DNA of 64,000 bases, taken from assembly GCF_009649845.1 (NCBI RefSeq), contig NZ_WJIE01000001.1, positions 372,001 to 436,000 on the forward strand. Reading direction: 5' to 3'. Shown in pieces: positions 15,872-24,739 of the stretch (position 1 is the first letter of the stretch; each line of letters starts with the position of its first letter). A program made the position numbers and the translations under genes. The notes under the pieces are model-generated. The model worked only from the letters and a program-made list of their open reading frames with translations. It was not told the origin of the DNA and did not search any database. This stretch comes from Polyangium spumosum. GTDB taxonomy: Bacteria > Myxococcota_A > Polyangia > Polyangiales > Polyangiaceae.

Positions 15872-18346
15872 ATGAAGACGACGCCCGAGACCCCGCCCGA
15901 ACCCACCCCGCGGCGGCTCCCCTCGAGAACGTTCGTGCGCCTCGCCGCGCTCGTCGCGCCCCTCGCGCTCGCCTCTTGCAGCGGCGCGAACCGCCCCGCC
16001 ACGCGGGTCGGTCCTTCGGTGCTCGCCTCACCGTCCGGCGCGCCCGTCGCAGGGATCGAGGTCCACGCCCTCGACGAGCGGCCGCGCCTCACCGTCGTGA
16101 ACCGAGACGGCGATCCCGCGCCCGCGATCGCCGTCGCCTTCGCCACGGACCCGGGCCCAGCCACGGCCGCGATGCTCTCGGCGCTCGTCGAGGCGCGCCT
16201 CGCCGCCGCGGGGTTCGAAACACGCGTGCGCGCCGATCGCACGGGCTTCCGCGTCGAGTGGCTCGTCGAGAACGCAGCCCGCGTCTCGCCCTTCCTCGCG
16301 GCGCTCGTCCGCGCGATGCGTGACCCCGTGGTCGCGAACGGCCCCGAATCTCCGCTCGTCACGCGCCGCCTCGCGGCCCTCCGAAAGACGCCGCTCGACG
16401 CGCCGGAGCTCGCGCCGATCGCCGCATGCACCGGACGCCTCGGCCACTCGCCGAGCGAGGCCGTCCCCGATCCCGCCTCGCCCACGTTCGCCGGCGAGCT
16501 CGAAGGGCAACGCCGCGAAGGCCTCCACGCGGGCCGCGCCGCCATCGCGTCCGTCGGCCCCGCTTCGTTCAGCGCGCTCGTCGCGAAGGCGCTCGAAGCG
16601 AGCGAAGGCTGGCCCGTCGGCGAGCCGGCCGCCGATCCCTTCCCCGCCGCAGACGCCGTCGCGAGTTACGTCGCGCCGTCGCAGAGCGCGCCGCGCGGCC
16701 AGGTGACCCTCGCCCTCCGGATCGGTGATGCCCTCGGCGCGGTCGCCGCCGCCGAGCGCCTCGCCGCACCCGATTCACCGCTGCATGCGCGCCTCGGGAG
16801 CCTGCCCGAAGCCTTCCACGCCGTGCAGGTCGTGGGCGTCGCGAGGGCTCGTGGTGGCTGCGTGAGCGTGACGATCGAGCCCGCGTCCCGCGTCGACGCC
16901 GCAGACCTCGAGCGCGCCGCCGCGCGCGCCGCCGCCGTCACGCGTCACGAGCTCCGCCTCGAGGGCGCCGTTCCCGGGACCGCCGCCGTCGCGATGCGCC
17001 AGATCCTCGCCGCCGCCGATCCGCGCGACGCAGCCTCGCGCGCCGCCTGGTGGGATCTCACCACGCCCGTCCCCTCCGCGCCTCCACGTCTCGCCGTCGC
17101 CCTCGCGTTGCCACCTCGCTCGACCCCGGCGCCTGGTTCGTCGGGACGCACCTTCGCCGCCGAGCTCGATCGCGCCTCGGCCGCCACGAGCGAGCCCATC
17201 GTCGAGCGTCGCGCCGCGGTCGAGCGTGGGCAAGGTGAGCTCTGGGCCCTCGTCGCGAGCCCTTGCGGCGTCGTGGACGAGGGCGTCGTCGACGCAGGCA
17301 CGACGGCCCTCGCGATGCTCGCGGCAGCAGCCTCGCGCGAGCCGAGCTCCGGCGTCTCCCTCGAACCCTGGGTCGGACCGGATGGCATGGGCCTCGTCGC
17401 GCATGCCGCGCCGCGTGACGACGAGACCCCCGTCGAGCTCGCGCGACGCGTCGGCGACGCAGCCGCGCGCGCCTTGTCCCCCGCAGCGCTCACGCCCGCG
17501 TCCCTCACCGAGGCACGGACCTCGGCGCTCGCGCACATCGAACGCACGACCGGCCGCGGCGGCGTCGCCTTCCAGGCGCTCGCATCCGCGCTCGTGCCCG
17601 AACATCCCTCGTGGCTCGATCCGCTCGGCATCTACACGCGTGTCTCCGGCGCGAGCCTCGAAGGCACGCGCCTGCGCCTGCGTACGCTCCACGAAGGACC
17701 ACTTCGCCTCGCCGTGCTGGCGAACGCCGACGCCGCGCAAGCCGCCGAGGTCGCGCGAGCCGTCGATCGATGGCTCGTCCCGCGCCCACCCGCTCGCGCA
17801 TGCCCGACGGCCACGCGTGGCCCCTCGCGCGCCGGCCCCCTCACGGCGCGACTCGCGCGTGACGCAGGCCTCGCGCAGGCGCTCGTCGCAGCGCCGATGC
17901 CCGCAGCCGGCGCCCCCGGGCACGACCTCGCGCTCTTCGTGACACTCGCGCTCAGCGGCGAGGGAGGTCTACTCGAAGCAACACTCCCGCCCGCAGGCGG
18001 CGTCCGCGCAGCCGCGCGGATCGTCGGCACGAACCAGGCCGCCGCGCTCGTCGTCGACGTGCGCGCGCCATCCGATCTCCTCGCGTCCGCCGTCAACGAC
18101 GTCCGCACGCTGCTCGGAAAAATCTCGCGCTCGGGCCTCGCGACGCCAGAGTTCAGCCGCGCCGCATCCCTCGCGCTCCGCCGCGAAACCGAGTCCCGCG
18201 CCGACCCACGCCGCCGCCTCATCCAGCTCTGGTCAGGCCGCAGCCAGGCGCGCGAGACGCCCACGCAGCAGGCCGTCGCCGCATTCCTCGCGACGTCGCT
18301 CGCCGAGAACATGCTGCTCGTCGTCGAGGCGCATCCAGATCCGTGA
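15872..18346 (+). CDS. Lipoprotein resembling M16 (insulinase-type) peptidases, zinc motif absent
   Basis: 824 residues. A signal peptide ends with the lipobox-like LALASCSGAN. The mature chain has the long repeated alpha/beta halves and spacing of M16 proteins: a strand with PAIAVAFATDPGPATAAML, then ALVEARLAAAGFETRV, and a similar pair in the C-terminal half. The M16 zinc site HXXEH is not found at the expected place or elsewhere, and the C-terminal Arg/Tyr pair could not be identified. It may therefore be the non-catalytic partner subunit of an M16 heterodimer, or a structural envelope protein. Assignment rests on pattern only and is moderate. It is followed by the multi-hairpin element. 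Confidence 0.6.
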   Translation: MKTTPETPPEPTPRRLPSRTFVRLAALVAPLALASCSGANRPATRVGPSVLASPSGAPVAGIEVHALDERPRLTVVNRDGDPAPAIAVAFATDPGPATAAMLSALVEARLAAAGFETRVRADRTGFRVEWLVENAARVSPFLAALVRAMRDPVVANGPESPLVTRRLAALRKTPLDAPELAPIAACTGRLGHSPSEAVPDPASPTFAGELEGQRREGLHAGRAAIASVGPASFSALVAKALEASEGWPVGEPAADPFPAADAVASYVAPSQSAPRGQVTLALRIGDALGAVAAAERLAAPDSPLHARLGSLPEAFHAVQVVGVARARGGCVSVTIEPASRVDAADLERAAARAAAVTRHELRLEGAVPGTAAVAMRQILAAADPRDAASRAAWWDLTTPVPSAPPRLAVALALPPRSTPAPGSSGRTFAAELDRASAATSEPIVERRAAVERGQGELWALVASPCGVVDEGVVDAGTTALAMLAAAASREPSSGVSLEPWVGPDGMGLVAHAAPRDDETPVELARRVGDAAARALSPAALTPASLTEARTSALAHIERTTGRGGVAFQALASALVPEHPSWLDPLGIYTRVSGASLEGTRLRLRTLHEGPLRLAVLANADAAQAAEVARAVDRWLVPRPPARACPTATRGPSRAGPLTARLARDAGLAQALVAAPMPAAGAPGHDLALFVTLALSGEGGLLEATLPPAGGVRAAARIVGTNQAAALVVDVRAPSDLLASAVNDVRTLLGKISRSGLATPEFSRAASLALRRETESRADPRRRLIQLWSGRSQARETPTQQAVAAFLATSLAENMLLVVEAHPDP

Positions 18347-18464: not shown

Positions 18465-19235
18465 TCAGAAGAGGTCGTCCGACTCCTCGAGGAGCTGCGG
18501 CTCTTCCGCGTCCGCCTTCGCCTCGACCTCGGCCTCGTCGTCCTCGAAGTCGTCGTCGTCGTCCTCGTCGCGCTCTTCCTCGTCGATGTCCTCGTCGTCG
18601 GTCTGCGCGAGCACCGGCAAGCGGCGCTTGCCGACAGGACCCTCGTCGACGTAGTCACGCAGCGCCGACATGTCGCGCAGCGCCTGCAGCTTCGCGAGCG
18701 CCTTCACCTCGACCTGACGGATACGCTCACGCGTCAGGTTCATGATCGCCCCCACGTCCTCGAGCGTCGTGCCGCCACGATCGGCCACGTCGAGCGCGCA
18801 GCTCTCGCTCATCTCCCACGCCTCGAGGTCCGGGAAATTCAGCTTGATCGCGCCCGTCCTCGCCGACACGTCGAGGAAGAGGTGATGCTTGCACGACACG
18901 TACGGACAAGGCCGCGGGCCGTCGAGGCACTCCGCCCGCGTGCGCGGCTTCCAGTAGTCGACCTCGGGATACAACATCCGGCCGATCTCGAGCTCCCGCT
19001 TGGTCATGCGCTTGACGCTGATCGTGCGGGCGCGGACCTCACGCTTGCGACGCGAGCGCCGCTGCTCGCGCGTGATCGCCGTCGCGGATGTCGCGGGGGC
19101 TGCCTTTCGAGCGAGCGCGCCCTCGACGAGGTTCTCGTCCCCGGTCTGCCTCGTCTGCGCGTCGTTCATGCCGCCGTCCACGTCTGCCTCGAGCTCGCCG
19201 AAACCCCCGAGCTCGCCATCTGCCATCGTTGCCAT
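18465..19235 (-). CDS. Sigma-70 region 4-like DNA-binding protein with Cys/His motif
   Basis: 256 residues. The ATG at 19235 is chosen because GGGAGG lies 6 bases upstream. A basic stretch ([18 protein letters not shown]) precedes a Cys cluster, [18 protein letters not shown], that could bind a metal. Then comes a helix-turn-helix like sigma region 4 ([20 protein letters not shown]), which in sigma factors reads the -35 box. Regions 2 and 3 are absent, so it cannot open promoters alone and is more likely a regulator or anti/co-sigma factor. The C-terminal 60 residues are strongly acidic ([20 protein letters not shown]). Upstream lies a MerR gene on the same strand and a 14-bp perfect inverted repeat. 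Confidence 0.82.
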
Positions 19236-19350
19236 GCGCTGCCTCCCGCTGGTCCTTCCGTACTGCGCGCGCACGTCCCCCTGCCCGTTCGGAGACCGGT
19301 CCGGACGAGTGCAAGGGTCCTGCTCCCTGGAACTACAATTTTCGTCGTCA

Positions 19351-19443: not shown

Positions 19444-19968
19444 TCAGGAGCCTGCCGCCGCTGCCCTCCGCGAGAGCCGAGCCTGGGCCATCAAGCGCTC
19501 TTCGATCGACGAGAGCTTGGCCACGAGGTCGGTGGCGAGCCTCTCCGCCATGGAGAGCTCCTGATGTATGGCGCGGTCGCTCGTCTCGCTTCGTCGCTCC
19601 TTGGCTGCGTCACGAAGCGCGTCGAAGACCTTGCCGATCGTCCGCTCGAGCTCCTCGATGTCACCCCGCACGAAGAGGAACTCCCGCTGGATCTCCTCGA
19701 TCGTGTAGTCCTGCGCCATCATCTCTTTGATGCGCTGGATCTGCCTGACCACCGTCGCCGGGTAGAGCCCTTGCGAGCCCTGGTGCTTGCCCTTCTTGCC
19801 CACCCGGACGCTCCGGGGCAGCAGGCCGAGCTGCACGTACTTCCGCAGCGTGGCCTCGCTGAATTTGATCCCGTGAGCGGCGAAGATGTCGAGGATCTCG
19901 GCCGACGTGATGCCCTGTCCGTGTTCGCGTTCGAGACGTTCGAGCGCGTCGTCCGAGATCCGCTGCAA
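19444..19968 (-). CDS. MerR family transcriptional regulator
   Basis: 174 residues. The winged helix-turn-helix spans about 20-75 ([20 protein letters not shown], then a GLYP wing), and a long coiled helix covers 80-165 ([19 protein letters not shown]). MerR proteins bind as dimers between over-spaced -35 and -10 boxes and twist the promoter. No Cys cluster is present at the C-terminus, so a metal ligand is unlikely. The 7-bp dyad 48 bases upstream is a plausible site for autoregulation. The gene lies upstream of the sigma-region-4-like gene, with the 14-bp hairpin between them. Confidence 0.9.
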
Positions 19969-20038: not shown

Positions 20039-20250
20039 GTCAATCTAACGGACGATGATTATTTCCGGGTGCACGAAGACCCGGCACATCCCGCATTTTC
20101 CGATGCTCGCTAGGACATTGTTGGTCCGCCCGTAGATCGTTTTTTCTTGATCATTTTGTGCATCTGAGGATCCCCCCCGAACCCGTCAATTGGTGCATCT
20201 CCCTACACAGCCTGCCCCTTTCCGGACGACTGATAGGCTTGCTCCCTCTC

Positions 20251-21102
20251 ATGGCAGACAAAAACCCCGACCCTCCCACGCGGGTCCTGCGGGACGTGAA
20301 CGCGCGCGGCGTGCGCATGCGCGTCCTCGAGGCGGGCTCGGGGCCCGCGCTCCTGCTCGTGCACGGCTTCCTCGTGAGCCACCGCTCGTTCGACGACATC
20401 ATCGACACGCTCGCGATGCGCTTCCACGTCATCGCGCCGGACCTGCCCGGCTTCGGCGAGAGCGAGAAGCCGAGCCCGACGCGTTATCCGTACGGGATCG
20501 AAGCATTCGCCGAGTCGATGGCCGACCTCATCGCCGCCTTCGGCGTCGGTCGCGCCTCCGTCGTCGGCCACGCGATGGGCGCGGCCGTCGCGCTCACGCT
20601 CGCAGCCGAGCACCCCGAGCTCGTGACGCGCCTCGTCGTGGAGGACGCGCTCTGTTACCCGTTCCCGCTGAGCTTCCGCGCCCGCTTGCCCCTCATGCCC
20701 GTGCTCGGCGGCGCGATCTTCAAGCAGCTCTACGGCCGCGGCACCTTCCGCGCCTACTTCCGCGACGAGTTCTTCCGCTCCGGAGCCGCGCTGCCCACCG
20801 AGCGCATCGACCAGCACTACGACTTCTTCAACGGCCCCTCGGCCCGCGAAAGCGCGTACGCGGTCCTCCGCTCCATCCTCGACACGCGCCCGATCGTCGC
20901 GCGTATCACGCGCATCACGACGCCCACGCTCGTCGTGTGGGGCCGCGACGATCGCATCTTCCCCGCAGCCTCCGCGTTGCGCCTCGCCCGCGAGCTCCCC
21001 TCGGCGAAGCTCGCGATCCTCGACGCCGCGCACGCGCCACACGAGGAGCGCCCGCGCGAGTTCGCCGAGCTCGCCCTGCAATTCTTGGAGGGCAAACGGT
21101 GA
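20251..21102 (+). CDS. Alpha/beta-hydrolase fold protein, nucleophile Ser replaced by Ala
   Basis: 283 residues from the ATG at 20251. It has the full fold: oxyanion segment LLLVHGFLVSHRS, DLPGFGES, nucleophile elbow, cap domain, WGRDDRIFP with the acid Asp, and DAAHAPHEERP with the catalytic His. The elbow reads VVGHAMGAAV: residue 108 is Ala (GCG, 20572-20574) where active relatives have Ser (GHSMG). The protein is therefore probably inactive as an esterase/peptidase, or has a sequencing or recent point mutation (TCG to GCG is one base). Its stop overlaps the start of the transporter gene. It could bind the transported substrate without hydrolysing it. Confidence 0.9.
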   Translation: MADKNPDPPTRVLRDVNARGVRMRVLEAGSGPALLLVHGFLVSHRSFDDIIDTLAMRFHVIAPDLPGFGESEKPSPTRYPYGIEAFAESMADLIAAFGVGRASVVGHAMGAAVALTLAAEHPELVTRLVVEDALCYPFPLSFRARLPLMPVLGGAIFKQLYGRGTFRAYFRDEFFRSGAALPTERIDQHYDFFNGPSARESAYAVLRSILDTRPIVARITRITTPTLVVWGRDDRIFPAASALRLARELPSAKLAILDAAHAPHEERPREFAELALQFLEGKR

Positions 21103-23708
21103 AGCTCCGCGAGGCCGCGCGGACGTTGCTTCGGAGCCCCGCACCACGCTCGGGTCTCATCCTCGTGCTCGGCCTCGTCGGCTTCTCGATCCTCGGCCCC
21201 CTCGTCATCCCCCACGATCCCAACACGAGCGACTTCTCCCTCACGCGTGACGCGCTCGGCGCGCCCCCCGGCCCTTCACGCGCCCACCTCCTCGGCACCG
21301 ACGCGCTCTACCGCGACGTGCTCGCGCGCCTCGCCCACGGCGGAAGGCTCTCGCTCGGCATCGCGGCGCTCGCCACGTTGATCGCCACGCTCGTCGGCAC
21401 GCTCGTCGGCGTGACGGCCGGTTACGCCGCGCGCACGCGCGCCGCGGCGCTCGACGTCGCGCTCATGCGGATCGTCGACGTCCTGCTCGCGCTCCCGTTC
21501 CTGCTCGTCGTCACCGCCATCGGCGCGTTCGTCGGCCGCTCCGACACGCTCACCGTGCTCTGCGTGCTCGGCCTCTCGGGCTGGGGCGGCTTCGCGCGTG
21601 TCCTCCGCGCGAAGACGATGCAGATCCGCGGCCTCTCCTTCATCACGGCCGCGCGCGCGCTCGGCGCGGGACACGTGCGTATCGTCCTTCGCCACGTCCT
21701 GCCGAACGCCGCGAGCTCCATCGCCGTGCTCGCCACGACGAGCATCGGGCAGATGATGCTCGCCGAGGCCGTGCTCGGTTACCTCTCGCTCGGCGTGCCG
21801 CCGCCCGAGGCCACCTGGGGCCGCATGTTGCACGAGGCCGAGCCCTTCGTCGGCACGCGCCTCGGCCTCGTCGCCGCCCCCGCGATCGCCATCCTGCTCT
21901 CGGTGCTCGCCTTCGGCCGCGTCGGCGAGGCTCTCCGTGAAGCGCTCGAAGCTCCGTCGGGACAACCCCTCTCGAAGTCGCGTTTGCCGGCCGACCTCCT
22001 GCTCGTCGCCGCCGCGCTCCTGCTCGTCGCGGTCATCCGCCCCGCGCCCGTCGCGCCGCCGCTCGCCGCGTCACCTCCGCCCGATCGCCTGCCGATACGC
22101 GGCGGCACGCTCCGCATCGCCACCCTCGTCAACGTGCGCACGCTCGATCCCGCGCTCGCCTACGACGAGGCCGCGACGGCGCTCACCGACCTCGTCTTCG
22201 CGCGCCTCGTGACCTTCGCGGAAGACGGCCGCGTCGTCCCCGAGCTCGCGCGTGACATCCAGATCTCGAGCGATGGCCGCACCTACACCTTCTTCCTCCG
22301 CGACAACGTCGTCTTCCACGACGGCGCGCCTCTCCGCGCCGCCGACGTCGCGCGCTCGCTCGAGCGCACGCTCCACCCGCGCACGCCCTGCCCCGCCGCG
22401 AGCCACTACGCCTCCATCCTCGGTTTCTCCGCCTTTCACGCGGGGAAAACGCCCCGCCTCGAAGGCGTACGCGTCACGGGTGACCTCACCGTGGAGATCA
22501 CGCTCGAGCGCTCCGACCCGACGTTCCTCCCGCTGCTCACGCTCGCCTTCGCCGCGCCCGTGTGCCCATCGTCCGGCACCACCGTCGACGCCGCTCGCCC
22601 TCCTCCGCCTTGCGGCGCCGGACCTTTTCGCCTCGCGTCATGGGAGCCCGAGGGGCCGATCCGCCTCGCGCGACACGCCGCGTACTTCGAGCCCGGCAAG
22701 CCGTACCTCGACGCGATCGAGTGGCACACGAGCGAGCGCTCCACGACGCAACGCTTCAAGTTCGAACGCGGCGCGCTCGACTACACGCGTGATCTCGGCA
22801 GCCAGGACGCCGCCCTCTACCGCGCGAGCCCCGCATGGGCCGGGCAACACGCGTTCTCGCCTTCCCGCGCGACGAACGCGATCTTCATGAACACCGAGCT
22901 CCCGCCCTTCGACGTGCGCGCGGTGCGCCGCGCCGTCGCGCTCGCGATCGATCCGAGCGTGCTCGAGAAGGTCCGCGGCGAAGCGCGCGCCACCTCGCGT
23001 GTGCTGCCCGAAGGCATCCCCGGCGCCGAAGGTCTCCCCTCGATGCGCCGCCACGACCTCGCCGCGGCGCTCGAAGAGATGCGACACGCGGGCTACCCCT
23101 TCGATCCGGCGACGGGACGCGGCGGCTACCCGCACCCCGTCGACTACCTCGCGCCCGCCGACACCTTCGAGCAACAGGCCGCCGAGATCTTCGCGCAGCA
23201 GCTCGCGCGGATCGGCATCCGCGTTCGCCTCCGGCTCACGAGTTACGCGACGTACCTCGCCGAAGCTTCCCGCAGGCGCACGACCCCCATGGGATGGGCC
23301 GGCTGGAAGGCCGACTTCCCCGATCCCGGAAACTTCTTCGAACCCACGCTCTCCTCGCGCGCGATCGACGACGAGCACTCGCAGAACTACGCCTTCTTCG
23401 CGCACGAAGAGCTCGACCGCGTGCTCGCCGCGGCCTCGAGCGAGCGTGATCCCGAGGCGCGTCGTCGCCTCTTCTTGCGCGCCGAAGAGATCGTCCGCGA
23501 CGAGGCCCCGTGGGCGCCGACGTACTCCCCGCGTGTCTTCGAGATCTGGCAGCCCTACCTGCGTGGCTACGCGCCGCACCCGATCGTCCCGCAGCGCTTC
23601 CGCGACGCATGGATCGACGCGACCGCCCTCGCCGAGAGGCACGCGCGCGTGAAGCTCGGGCCCGCGTCCCTCTTGCTCCCGTTCGCCTCGCGACGAGGTC
23701 GCCCATGA
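21099..23708 (+). CDS. Fusion of DppC-type ABC permease and family 5 solute-binding protein
   Basis: 869 residues from a GTG at 21099 (GGAGGG 6 bases upstream; GTGA overlap with the hydrolase stop). Residues 1-285 are a DppC/OppC permease: six membrane segments, LLGTDALYRDVLARLAHGG and the coupling-loop region with ARALGAGHVRIVLRHVLPN. An added hydrophobic segment near 297-314 (LLLVAAALLLVAVI) crosses the membrane once more. From about 334 a peptide-binding (SBP_bac_5) domain follows: GGTLRIATLVNVRTLDPAL, FLRDNVVFHDGAPLRAADV and GWAGWKADFPDPGNFFEP. The extra segment places the binding domain in the periplasm, tethered to its permease. Usually these are separate proteins. No frameshift is needed. 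Confidence 0.92.
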   Translation: MKLREAARTLLRSPAPRSGLILVLGLVGFSILGPLVIPHDPNTSDFSLTRDALGAPPGPSRAHLLGTDALYRDVLARLAHGGRLSLGIAALATLIATLVGTLVGVTAGYAARTRAAALDVALMRIVDVLLALPFLLVVTAIGAFVGRSDTLTVLCVLGLSGWGGFARVLRAKTMQIRGLSFITAARALGAGHVRIVLRHVLPNAASSIAVLATTSIGQMMLAEAVLGYLSLGVPPPEATWGRMLHEAEPFVGTRLGLVAAPAIAILLSVLAFGRVGEALREALEAPSGQPLSKSRLPADLLLVAAALLLVAVIRPAPVAPPLAASPPPDRLPIRGGTLRIATLVNVRTLDPALAYDEAATALTDLVFARLVTFAEDGRVVPELARDIQISSDGRTYTFFLRDNVVFHDGAPLRAADVARSLERTLHPRTPCPAASHYASILGFSAFHAGKTPRLEGVRVTGDLTVEITLERSDPTFLPLLTLAFAAPVCPSSGTTVDAARPPPPCGAGPFRLASWEPEGPIRLARHAAYFEPGKPYLDAIEWHTSERSTTQRFKFERGALDYTRDLGSQDAALYRASPAWAGQHAFSPSRATNAIFMNTELPPFDVRAVRRAVALAIDPSVLEKVRGEARATSRVLPEGIPGAEGLPSMRRHDLAAALEEMRHAGYPFDPATGRGGYPHPVDYLAPADTFEQQAAEIFAQQLARIGIRVRLRLTSYATYLAEASRRRTTPMGWAGWKADFPDPGNFFEPTLSSRAIDDEHSQNYAFFAHEELDRVLAAASSERDPEARRRLFLRAEEIVRDEAPWAPTYSPRVFEIWQPYLRGYAPHPIVPQRFRDAWIDATALAERHARVKLGPASLLLPFASRRGRP

Positions 23709-24739
23709 GGAAAAACCTCGCGCGTGTGGCGCAACGCGTCGGCTGGGCGCTCGTGGTCGTGTACGGCGTGACGCTGGTGTCGTTCGCCCTCGTCCACGTG
23801 CTGCCCGGCGACCCGGTGCGTTTGCTCGTCGGACCGCAGGCCTCCGCGCGAGACGTCGCGCGCGCGCGCGAGGTCTACGGGCATGGAGGCCCGCTCGGCG
23901 TGCAGTACCTGCGCTTCCTGCGAAGGCTCGTGCACACCGGCGCGGGCCCCACCGCCGAAGCACGCAAGGACCTGGAGCACCGGAGCTGCGCGGCGCTCGG
24001 GCCCGTGCATTTCGACCTCGGGCACAGCTTCCATTACCGGCGGCCCGTCGTGGACCTCGTGGCGGCGAAGCTCCCTCGATCCCTCGAGCTCGCGCTCGCC
24101 GCGCTCCTCGTGCAGCTCACCGTGGGCCTCGGCCTCGGCATCACCACGGCCGCGCGGCGAGGCACGCGCTGGGACGAGCTCGGCGCGGGCCTGTCCTTGC
24201 TCGGCATCAGCGCGCCCACGTTCCTCACCGGGCTCGCGCTTCAGTACTTGCTCGCGCATCGCCTCGGCCTGCTCCCCTACGACGGGATCGGAAAAACCCC
24301 CGGCGAGCACCTGCGTTCGCTCGTGCTCCCGGCCCTCACGCTCGGCATCTACGGGAGCGCGCTCTACGCGCGCCTCGTGCGCGCCGAGCTCGGCGCCGCG
24401 CTCGCCGAGGACCACGTGCGCATGGCCCTCGCCAAGGGCGCCTCGCGCGCGCGGGCCCTCGTCGTGCACGGCCTGCGCACCGCGCTCGTCCCGGTCACGA
24501 CGCTCGCCGTGCTCGATCTCGGCGCGCTCGTCGGCGGCGCCGTCGTGACCGAGCGCCTCTTCCGCTGGCCCGGCATGGGACAGATGGCCGTCGAGTCGCT
24601 CCTGAACCGCGACGGCCCCGTCATCGTCGCGACGGTCCTCGTGGCCTCGATCGCCGTCGTGCTCTCGACCTTGCTCGTCGACCTGCTCGCGCCGCTCCTC
24701 GATCCGCGAATCGATCGCGACACGAAGAACGGCGGCTGA
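23705..24739 (+). CDS. DppB-type peptide ABC transporter permease
   Basis: 344 residues; ATGA overlap with the fusion gene. Six membrane segments start with WALVVVYGVTLVSFALVHVL, followed by the family signature PGDPVRLLVGPQAS. The ATPase-contacting loop contains HVRMALAKGASRARALVVHG and the end has TERLFRWPGMGQM. It would pair with the permease half of the fusion to form the channel for oligopeptides or similar solutes. No ATP-binding subunit (DppD/DppF) lies in the operon, so one must come from elsewhere. The next gene is convergent with no gap. Confidence 0.92.
   Translation: MRKNLARVAQRVGWALVVVYGVTLVSFALVHVLPGDPVRLLVGPQASARDVARAREVYGHGGPLGVQYLRFLRRLVHTGAGPTAEARKDLEHRSCAALGPVHFDLGHSFHYRRPVVDLVAAKLPRSLELALAALLVQLTVGLGLGITTAARRGTRWDELGAGLSLLGISAPTFLTGLALQYLLAHRLGLLPYDGIGKTPGEHLRSLVLPALTLGIYGSALYARLVRAELGAALAEDHVRMALAKGASRARALVVHGLRTALVPVTTLAVLDLGALVGGAVVTERLFRWPGMGQMAVESLLNRDGPVIVATVLVASIAVVLSTLLVDLLAPLLDPRIDRDTKNGG

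Follow-up and report, generated by a model that had tools for sequence, protein, structure and literature searches.

A DppC-type permease fused to its binding protein in Polyangium spumosum, with a seventh membrane helix probably derived from a lipoprotein signal peptide

OpuA and GlnPQ are importers in which the substrate-binding domain is fused to the permease. Together with OpuF and EgtUBC, they represent the glycine-betaine or amino-acid binding classes, with a fused permease that forms a homodimer and two receptors per transporter, and such fused receptor-permeases have served as tools for asking how many receptors are needed and to what extent docking limits transport. For the peptide importers of the Dpp type, the part of PMC12136057 drawn on here describes six transmembrane (TM) helices in DppC of Escherichia coli and likewise in DppB, both in contact with DppD and DppF, and a DppBCDF complex that becomes active only on joint binding of DppA and ATP; in the same part, peptide receptors are given as lipoproteins in Mycobacterium tuberculosis and Gram-positive bacteria and as soluble proteins in Gram-negative ones. 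Here, we describe a gene of Polyangium spumosum (order Polyangiales, family Polyangiaceae) that joins a DppC-type permease in frame to a family 5 solute-binding protein. It occupies positions 21099-23708 of the forward strand of the window, that is, of the whole stretch of 64,000 nucleotides analysed (contig NZ_WJIE01000001.1 of assembly GCF_009649845.1, positions 372,001 to 436,000). We read it as the DppC half of a Dpp/Opp-type peptide importer with a built-in binding protein, working with a DppB partner and with ATPases encoded at a distance, and give this explanation as a whole a probability of roughly 0.72.

The gene is a single open frame of 869 codons, running from a GTG start at 21099 to a TGA stop at 23706-23708. 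Pfam matches to OppC_N (residues 4-49; 26.5 bits against a cut-off of 23.9), BPD_transp_1 (residues 100-278; 86.5 bits) and SBP_bac_5 (residues 379-755; 239 bits, E 1e-70) all exceed the curated cut-offs, and no binding-protein family of Pfam other than SBP_bac_5 matched the fusion. The best NCBIfam match of the permease part is Opp4C, at 221.9 bits, which is below the equivalog cut-off of 350. What an initial annotation of the DNA had proposed, namely a DppC-type permease, an extra membrane segment and a full family 5 domain in one frame, is confirmed. Homology assigns six TM helices to the permease part, with a coupling-helix region at about residues 181-203, and E. coli DppC ends level with residue 289 of the fusion when the two are aligned. 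Beyond that point lies an additional hydrophobic segment, TM7, preceded by K293 and R295. Both ends of E. coli DppC are cytoplasmic. Because a seventh helix follows a DppC part of this kind, the binding domain is expected to be periplasmic, and the topology put forward in the initial annotation agrees with this. An AlphaFold2 model of the fusion (mean predicted local distance difference test score, pLDDT, 76.7; predicted template modelling score 0.57; input alignment of 21 rows) shows residues 296-312 as helical at low confidence (block means of 52-53), followed by a disordered stretch, with pLDDT below 50 across residues 308-333.

The origin of this joint is suggested by relatives in which permease and binding protein are encoded separately. 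The lipobox cysteine is present in all 53 split relatives from the window's own family, whereas at the aligned position it is found in none of the 26 members of the fused clade, which instead have R (9 rows), S (8), P (3), T (2) or E, G, I and Q (one each); in the window the position is taken by R314. The hydrophobic stretch of the split relatives and the block downstream of it are kept in the fused rows. On the strength of this difference in the cysteine, the receptor can be taken, by the motif in its split relatives, to have been a lipoprotein, the signal peptide of which most likely became TM7 and so came to tether one receptor to each transporter. Readings of the lipobox were made with a simple pattern of our own over the last 48 residues, together with hydropathy. 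In the other families the pattern fits the split rows of f3 (7/7), f5 (4/4), f11 (2/2), f6 (1/1) and f9 (1/1), and 3 of the 19 in f4, while the lack of a cysteine and the look of a plain N-terminal helix characterize 12 of the 19 split rows of f4, all seven of f12 and the single one of f2. The best 19-residue Kyte-Doolittle window averages 2.07 in fused rows and 1.56 in split ones, a comparison between related rows for which no significance is claimed.

A segment with such a history could conceivably still be processed. TM7 has only about 14-17 strongly hydrophobic residues, is modelled at low confidence and shows homology to a signal peptide, which leaves room for cleavage; the fused chain would then be a precursor that signal peptidase cuts after TM7, freeing the binding domain in the periplasm and leaving the two parts ordinary and separate. 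Small residues do close TM7 in some rows, such as SAVAS in G069, but no conserved A-x-A site is apparent by eye, a proline often stands just past the old cleavage site and the segment is more hydrophobic when fused. Complete loss of the lipobox cysteine in the fused rows, set against its complete retention in the split ones, also speaks against a cleaved precursor, which we regard as unlikely.

The same question of one chain or two arises from the start codons. The binding protein might be made separately from an internal start despite the open frame, and candidates are not lacking: 3 codons ahead of the hydrophobic segment the window has a TTG, and in G174 and in G175 an ATG precedes it by 5 codons. 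Among the 25 rows of the clade that remain in the alignment (A1; one row, G156, was left out since its fetched stretch ran beyond the stop), however, only nine have any in-frame ATG, GTG or TTG in the stretch that links the permease to TM7, at residues 280-300. Five linkers free of start codons were considered as proof of a single chain, and this argument fails, since a GTG or ATG is common to 20 of the 25 rows at residue 269, a valine in the last permease helix. That codon is an unlikely start; it belongs to a conserved valine column in a GC-rich gene, and initiation there would leave half a permease helix before the anchor. Disappearance of the cysteine would, furthermore, be hard to reconcile with a receptor that is still a separate lipoprotein. 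Separate synthesis thus appears distinctly improbable, and a single uncleaved chain is what we would expect the gene to produce.

The fusion is not peculiar to this genome. A search of 183 genomes of the order with the fusion protein gave some match in 181, and 130 loci from 130 genomes, one each, were read as DNA, with the other 53 genomes left out. In 28 of these loci the two genes are fused, in 96 they are separate genes that follow each other in that order, and in six no DppC stands beside the binding protein. Two genomes, G116 and G022, give an end-to-end protein match with a stop between the parts and were counted as split. The six loci without DppC comprise two at a contig start (G113 and G046) and four from genus group g54 (G010, G012, G013 and G014). 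At the g54 loci L075, L135, L162 and L163, a binding protein was found with no DppC beside it, and DppB is adjacent in three of the four. The fused loci fall into the window's family, f1 (26 loci, 10 genus codes), and one other family (2 loci). All six genomes of the window's genus group are fused, with full-length in-frame homologues of 87-100% identity; four named Polyangium genomes including P. fumosum DSM 14668 have homologues 87-90% identical over the protein. The 20 further fused loci of the family are spread over nine other genus groups. A domain scan covering 27 of the 28 fused homologues, one being left out, matched BPD_transp_1 and SBP_bac_5 in all 27 and OppC_N in 19. The set of homologues with the same fused order that was to be looked for accordingly exists, and neither a family of uniformly split homologues nor a stop between residues 285 and 335, the two outcomes named as contrary to the fusion, was encountered.

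These data also dispose of the suggestion that the frame results from a sequencing or assembly error or belongs to a decaying gene. A slip is excluded because independent genomes carry the same joint frame; they number 28, and two of them have it on contigs of chromosome size (16,040,666 and 14,782,125 bases). Substitutions in the linker within the genus follow a coding pattern as well, codon positions 1, 2 and 3 varying in 15, 6 and 21 of 50 codons. We attach practically no likelihood to an artefact. Further afield, in a survey of 377 genomes across the phylum, the both-domain proteins among the matches listed belonged to 10 genomes, each from this order, a weak negative for the rest of the phylum given that two candidates per genome were scored. 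In a plasmid collection, where 3562 records gave a match, each of the 15 best places was in two pieces.

A tree of 124 rows, built from the permease and binding domains with the linker left out and with the six loci lacking an adjacent DppC omitted, unites the 26 fused rows of the family in a single clade (SH-aLRT 100), next to split relatives that also belong to this family. The other two form a separate clade inside another family. The fused state requires two changes on this tree, compared with an average of 25.5 for shuffled labels, and a single origin of all 28 fusions is rejected both by the tree and by an approximately unbiased (AU) test (p 4e-54, quick tree). No return from the fused to the split state was seen on the tree within the clade of 26. 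The second pair (L060, 2302-4857, and L061, 3481-5994, both on the minus strand of their loci) has relatives that lack a lipobox and carry a helix at the N-terminus; it is the less secure of the two groups, in that the in-frame ATG just before its hydrophobic segment may provide a separate start. On balance, we favour a history for the window's clade in which the stop between two genes was lost, the lipid-bearing cysteine was replaced and a lipoprotein signal peptide was exapted as an internal TM helix, yielding a peptide importer with a single, permanently tethered receptor. The order would then keep this receptor membrane-bound in three ways, by a lipid anchor, by a helix at its N-terminus or by joining it to the permease, the last of them reached at least twice.

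Features of the fusion gene and its operon in the window (positions are those of the 64,000-nucleotide stretch)
Feature	Position	Strand	Basis
Fused DppC-type permease/family 5 solute-binding protein	21099..23708	+	Open frame; Pfam; 28/130 loci fused
DppC/OppC permease part, residues 1-284	21099..21950	+	Pfam; alignment to E. coli DppC
Extra hydrophobic segment TM7, residues 296-313	21984..22037	+	AlphaFold2; 26 fused rows aligned with 53 split ones; hydropathy
Pro/Ala-rich flexible tether, residues 314-336	22038..22106	+	pLDDT <50 at 308-333; length varies among relatives
Family 5 (cluster C) solute-binding domain, residues 337-845	22107..23633	+	Pfam; phmmer and Foldseek to 8upi, YliB/GsiB and DppA
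DppB/OppB-type permease, 344 aa	23705..24739	+	Pfam BPD_transp_1_N and BPD_transp_1
Alpha/beta hydrolase	20248..21102	+	Pfam Abhydrolase_1; ATG start chosen, program-listed open reading frame begins at 20158

A DppB-type gene lies downstream of the fusion in all 28 fused loci. In the window its ATG overlaps the stop of the fusion (ATGA), and its best NCBIfam match is Opp2B (252.5 bits, cut-off 350). Upstream, the stop of a hydrolase gene overlaps the GTG of the fusion, and a relative of this hydrolase precedes 25 of the 26 fused and 51 of the 53 split loci of the window's family. Since adjacent genes overlap, hydrolase, fusion and DppB look like one operon, probably translationally coupled. 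The arrangement (alpha/beta hydrolase)-DppC-SBP-DppB (SBP, solute-binding protein), with no ATPase genes, is conserved between the window (20248-24739) and loci L048-L086. The periplasmic loop between TM1 and TM2 of DppB is some 25 residues longer than that of E. coli DppB and contains a recurring SCA..G..H.DLG stretch. As measured in 22 fused and 35 split rows, with one false long read-out in each group, the long loop is present in fused and in many split members of the family; it is equally long in the split relatives, and the idea that it changed together with the fusion was rejected. Beside the operon, on the opposite strand, are two regulator-like genes, for a sigma-70 region 4 protein (18465-19274) and a MerR-type protein (19444-19968), and further upstream an 824-residue protein (15872-18346) has no Pfam match at E 0.001.

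The Dpp parts that can be recognised in the genome (10.76 Mb, 99.7% complete) make up a single set, divided between two sites. The fusion is its only SBP_bac_5 match above cut-off and its only OppC_N match, which suits the earlier description of the receptor as the permease's "own" binding protein; a second SBP_bac_5 match reaches 25.5 bits, below the cut-off. At L002 (G000:C14:55872-56318), a weak partial SBP_bac_5 match, below cut-off, lies within a long open frame. The genome has no more than two oligo_HPY matches; they belong to neighbouring genes on contig 3, each combining ABC_tran with oligo_HPY, which constitute a pair of DppD/DppF type. Twenty of 39 genomes, this one included, have a located operon and exactly one adjacent oligo_HPY pair away from it, on another contig in 18 and on the same contig, at least 0.2 Mb off, in two (G145 and G180). 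The other 19 comprise 14 with more than two oligo_HPY matches, four with two non-adjacent matches or no located operon, and one, G103, with none. The separation is probably older than the fusion, because split and fused members both show it.

An operon without ATPase genes raises the alternative that the fusion is a sensor or regulator and not an importer. Among 44 loci of the order (L035-L039 and L048-L086; 8.9-18.6 kb), no DppD/DppF-like gene was found beside the operon, apart from weak ABC matches of 32-33% near it, on the other strand, in L053, and G103 (91% complete; locus L067, where the operon is split) has the operon and no oligo_HPY match, which may reflect a gap in the sequence or a different partner. 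The DppD/DppF-type pair elsewhere in the genome and the single distant pair in 20 of the 39 genomes speak against this alternative, as does the preservation of the coupling-helix region and of the binding-pocket aspartate. We consider a sensory or regulatory role in place of import highly improbable and retain the reading as an importer.

As to what is imported, D436 of E. coli DppA holds the amino group of the peptide, according to the part of PMC12136057 used here. Its counterpart in the fusion is D739 (23313-23315), and the column is D in all 124 rows. The residue aligned with R383, which in DppA binds the dipeptide carboxylate, is I, V, L or H throughout the 124 rows, in a region of the alignment with many gaps; a dipeptide as the substrate is not supported. 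The nearest solved binding proteins are 8upi (a Mesorhizobium peptide-binding protein with aminoserine), Helicobacter pylori DppA, YliB/GsiB and E. coli DppA. On these grounds we would expect an amine-bearing substrate that is probably a peptide and need not be a dipeptide.

The mode of operation that we propose can be pictured as follows. The DppC part would cross the membrane six times and end in the cytoplasm, and the former signal peptide, minus its cysteine, would serve as helix seven and carry the chain across to the periplasm. There a flexible tether, some 20-25 residues long, would hold the binding domain and should allow it to dock on its own channel. With DppB from the next gene and the only DppD/DppF-type pair of the genome, the fusion would form a DppBCDF-like heterotetramer with exactly one attached receptor. 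The receptor would catch a substrate, in all likelihood a peptide, that bears a free amino group, and would dock on its own DppB/DppC from outside, whereupon the substrate would be released into the cavity and ATP would drive its import. A number of observations weigh against this explanation. In addition to the shortness of TM7, the recurrent codon at residue 269, the substituted R383 column and the case of G103, the lipobox pattern fits two of the 26 fused rows, albeit with the cysteine inside the helix and off the aligned column; the ligands of SBP_bac_5 proteins further include nickel chelates, opines and glutathione; and the ATPase pair lies on a different contig from the operon, its suggested partnership with the fusion resting on its being the only such pair in the genome.

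If the explanation is true, the fusion documents a cleavable, lipidated export signal turning into an internal membrane helix. It would also be a peptide importer of heterodimeric type to which one receptor is tethered, and together with its close lipid-anchored relatives, which have the same neighbours, it would make a natural pair for the question of receptor number and docking. The initial annotation knew of no standard fusion in the Dpp/Opp class, and this agrees with a search of open-licence papers, itself confined, like the genomes, to part of what exists (for the genomes, part of the tree of life): their titles and abstract openings contain no report of a fusion between a Dpp/Opp permease and its binding protein, most subscription papers being outside that search. 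The part of PMC6450668 drawn on here makes no mention of fusions either.

Comparison with E. coli DppABCDF reveals both likeness and difference. The two systems share permeases of DppC and DppB type, a family 5 domain with the amine-binding aspartate and two oligo_HPY ATPases. The peptide receptor is soluble and separate in Gram-negative bacteria, as given in the part of PMC12136057 cited above, and fused to DppC in Polyangium; the gene order is A-B-C-D-F in E. coli and C-SBP-B in Polyangium; and, unlike in E. coli, the Polyangium ATPases are encoded elsewhere and R383 is not conserved. A separate binding protein is usual in the described members of the Dpp/Opp class without strictly defining it, and the Polyangium fusion is a variant of that class. 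The same source, within the part used, gives the general statement that peptide receptors of Gram-negative bacteria are soluble, to which the fusion runs counter. The lipoprotein receptors of M. tuberculosis and Gram-positive bacteria are held at the membrane, as the split relatives, lipoproteins by motif, would be; in the fused clade, by contrast, within a Gram-negative order, the lipid anchor appears to have been replaced by a protein link to the permease.

In OpuF and EgtUBC, the binding domain is covalently tied to the transmembrane domain (PMC9732360, in the part cited), as it is in the fusion. Fusions of that type come from Gram-positive bacteria and involve other binding-protein classes, whereas the Polyangium fusion matches SBP_bac_5 only; it would work like the fused importers in principle and belongs to a different binding-protein class. 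Its partner DppB, encoded separately, has no receptor attached, and the transporter would thus have one receptor, compared with two in the OpuA/GlnPQ type. The principle of fusing receptor and permease is thus already known, and what is new, as far as we have seen, is that it concerns this importer class and a Gram-negative host, with a probable conversion of a lipoprotein signal into a helix.

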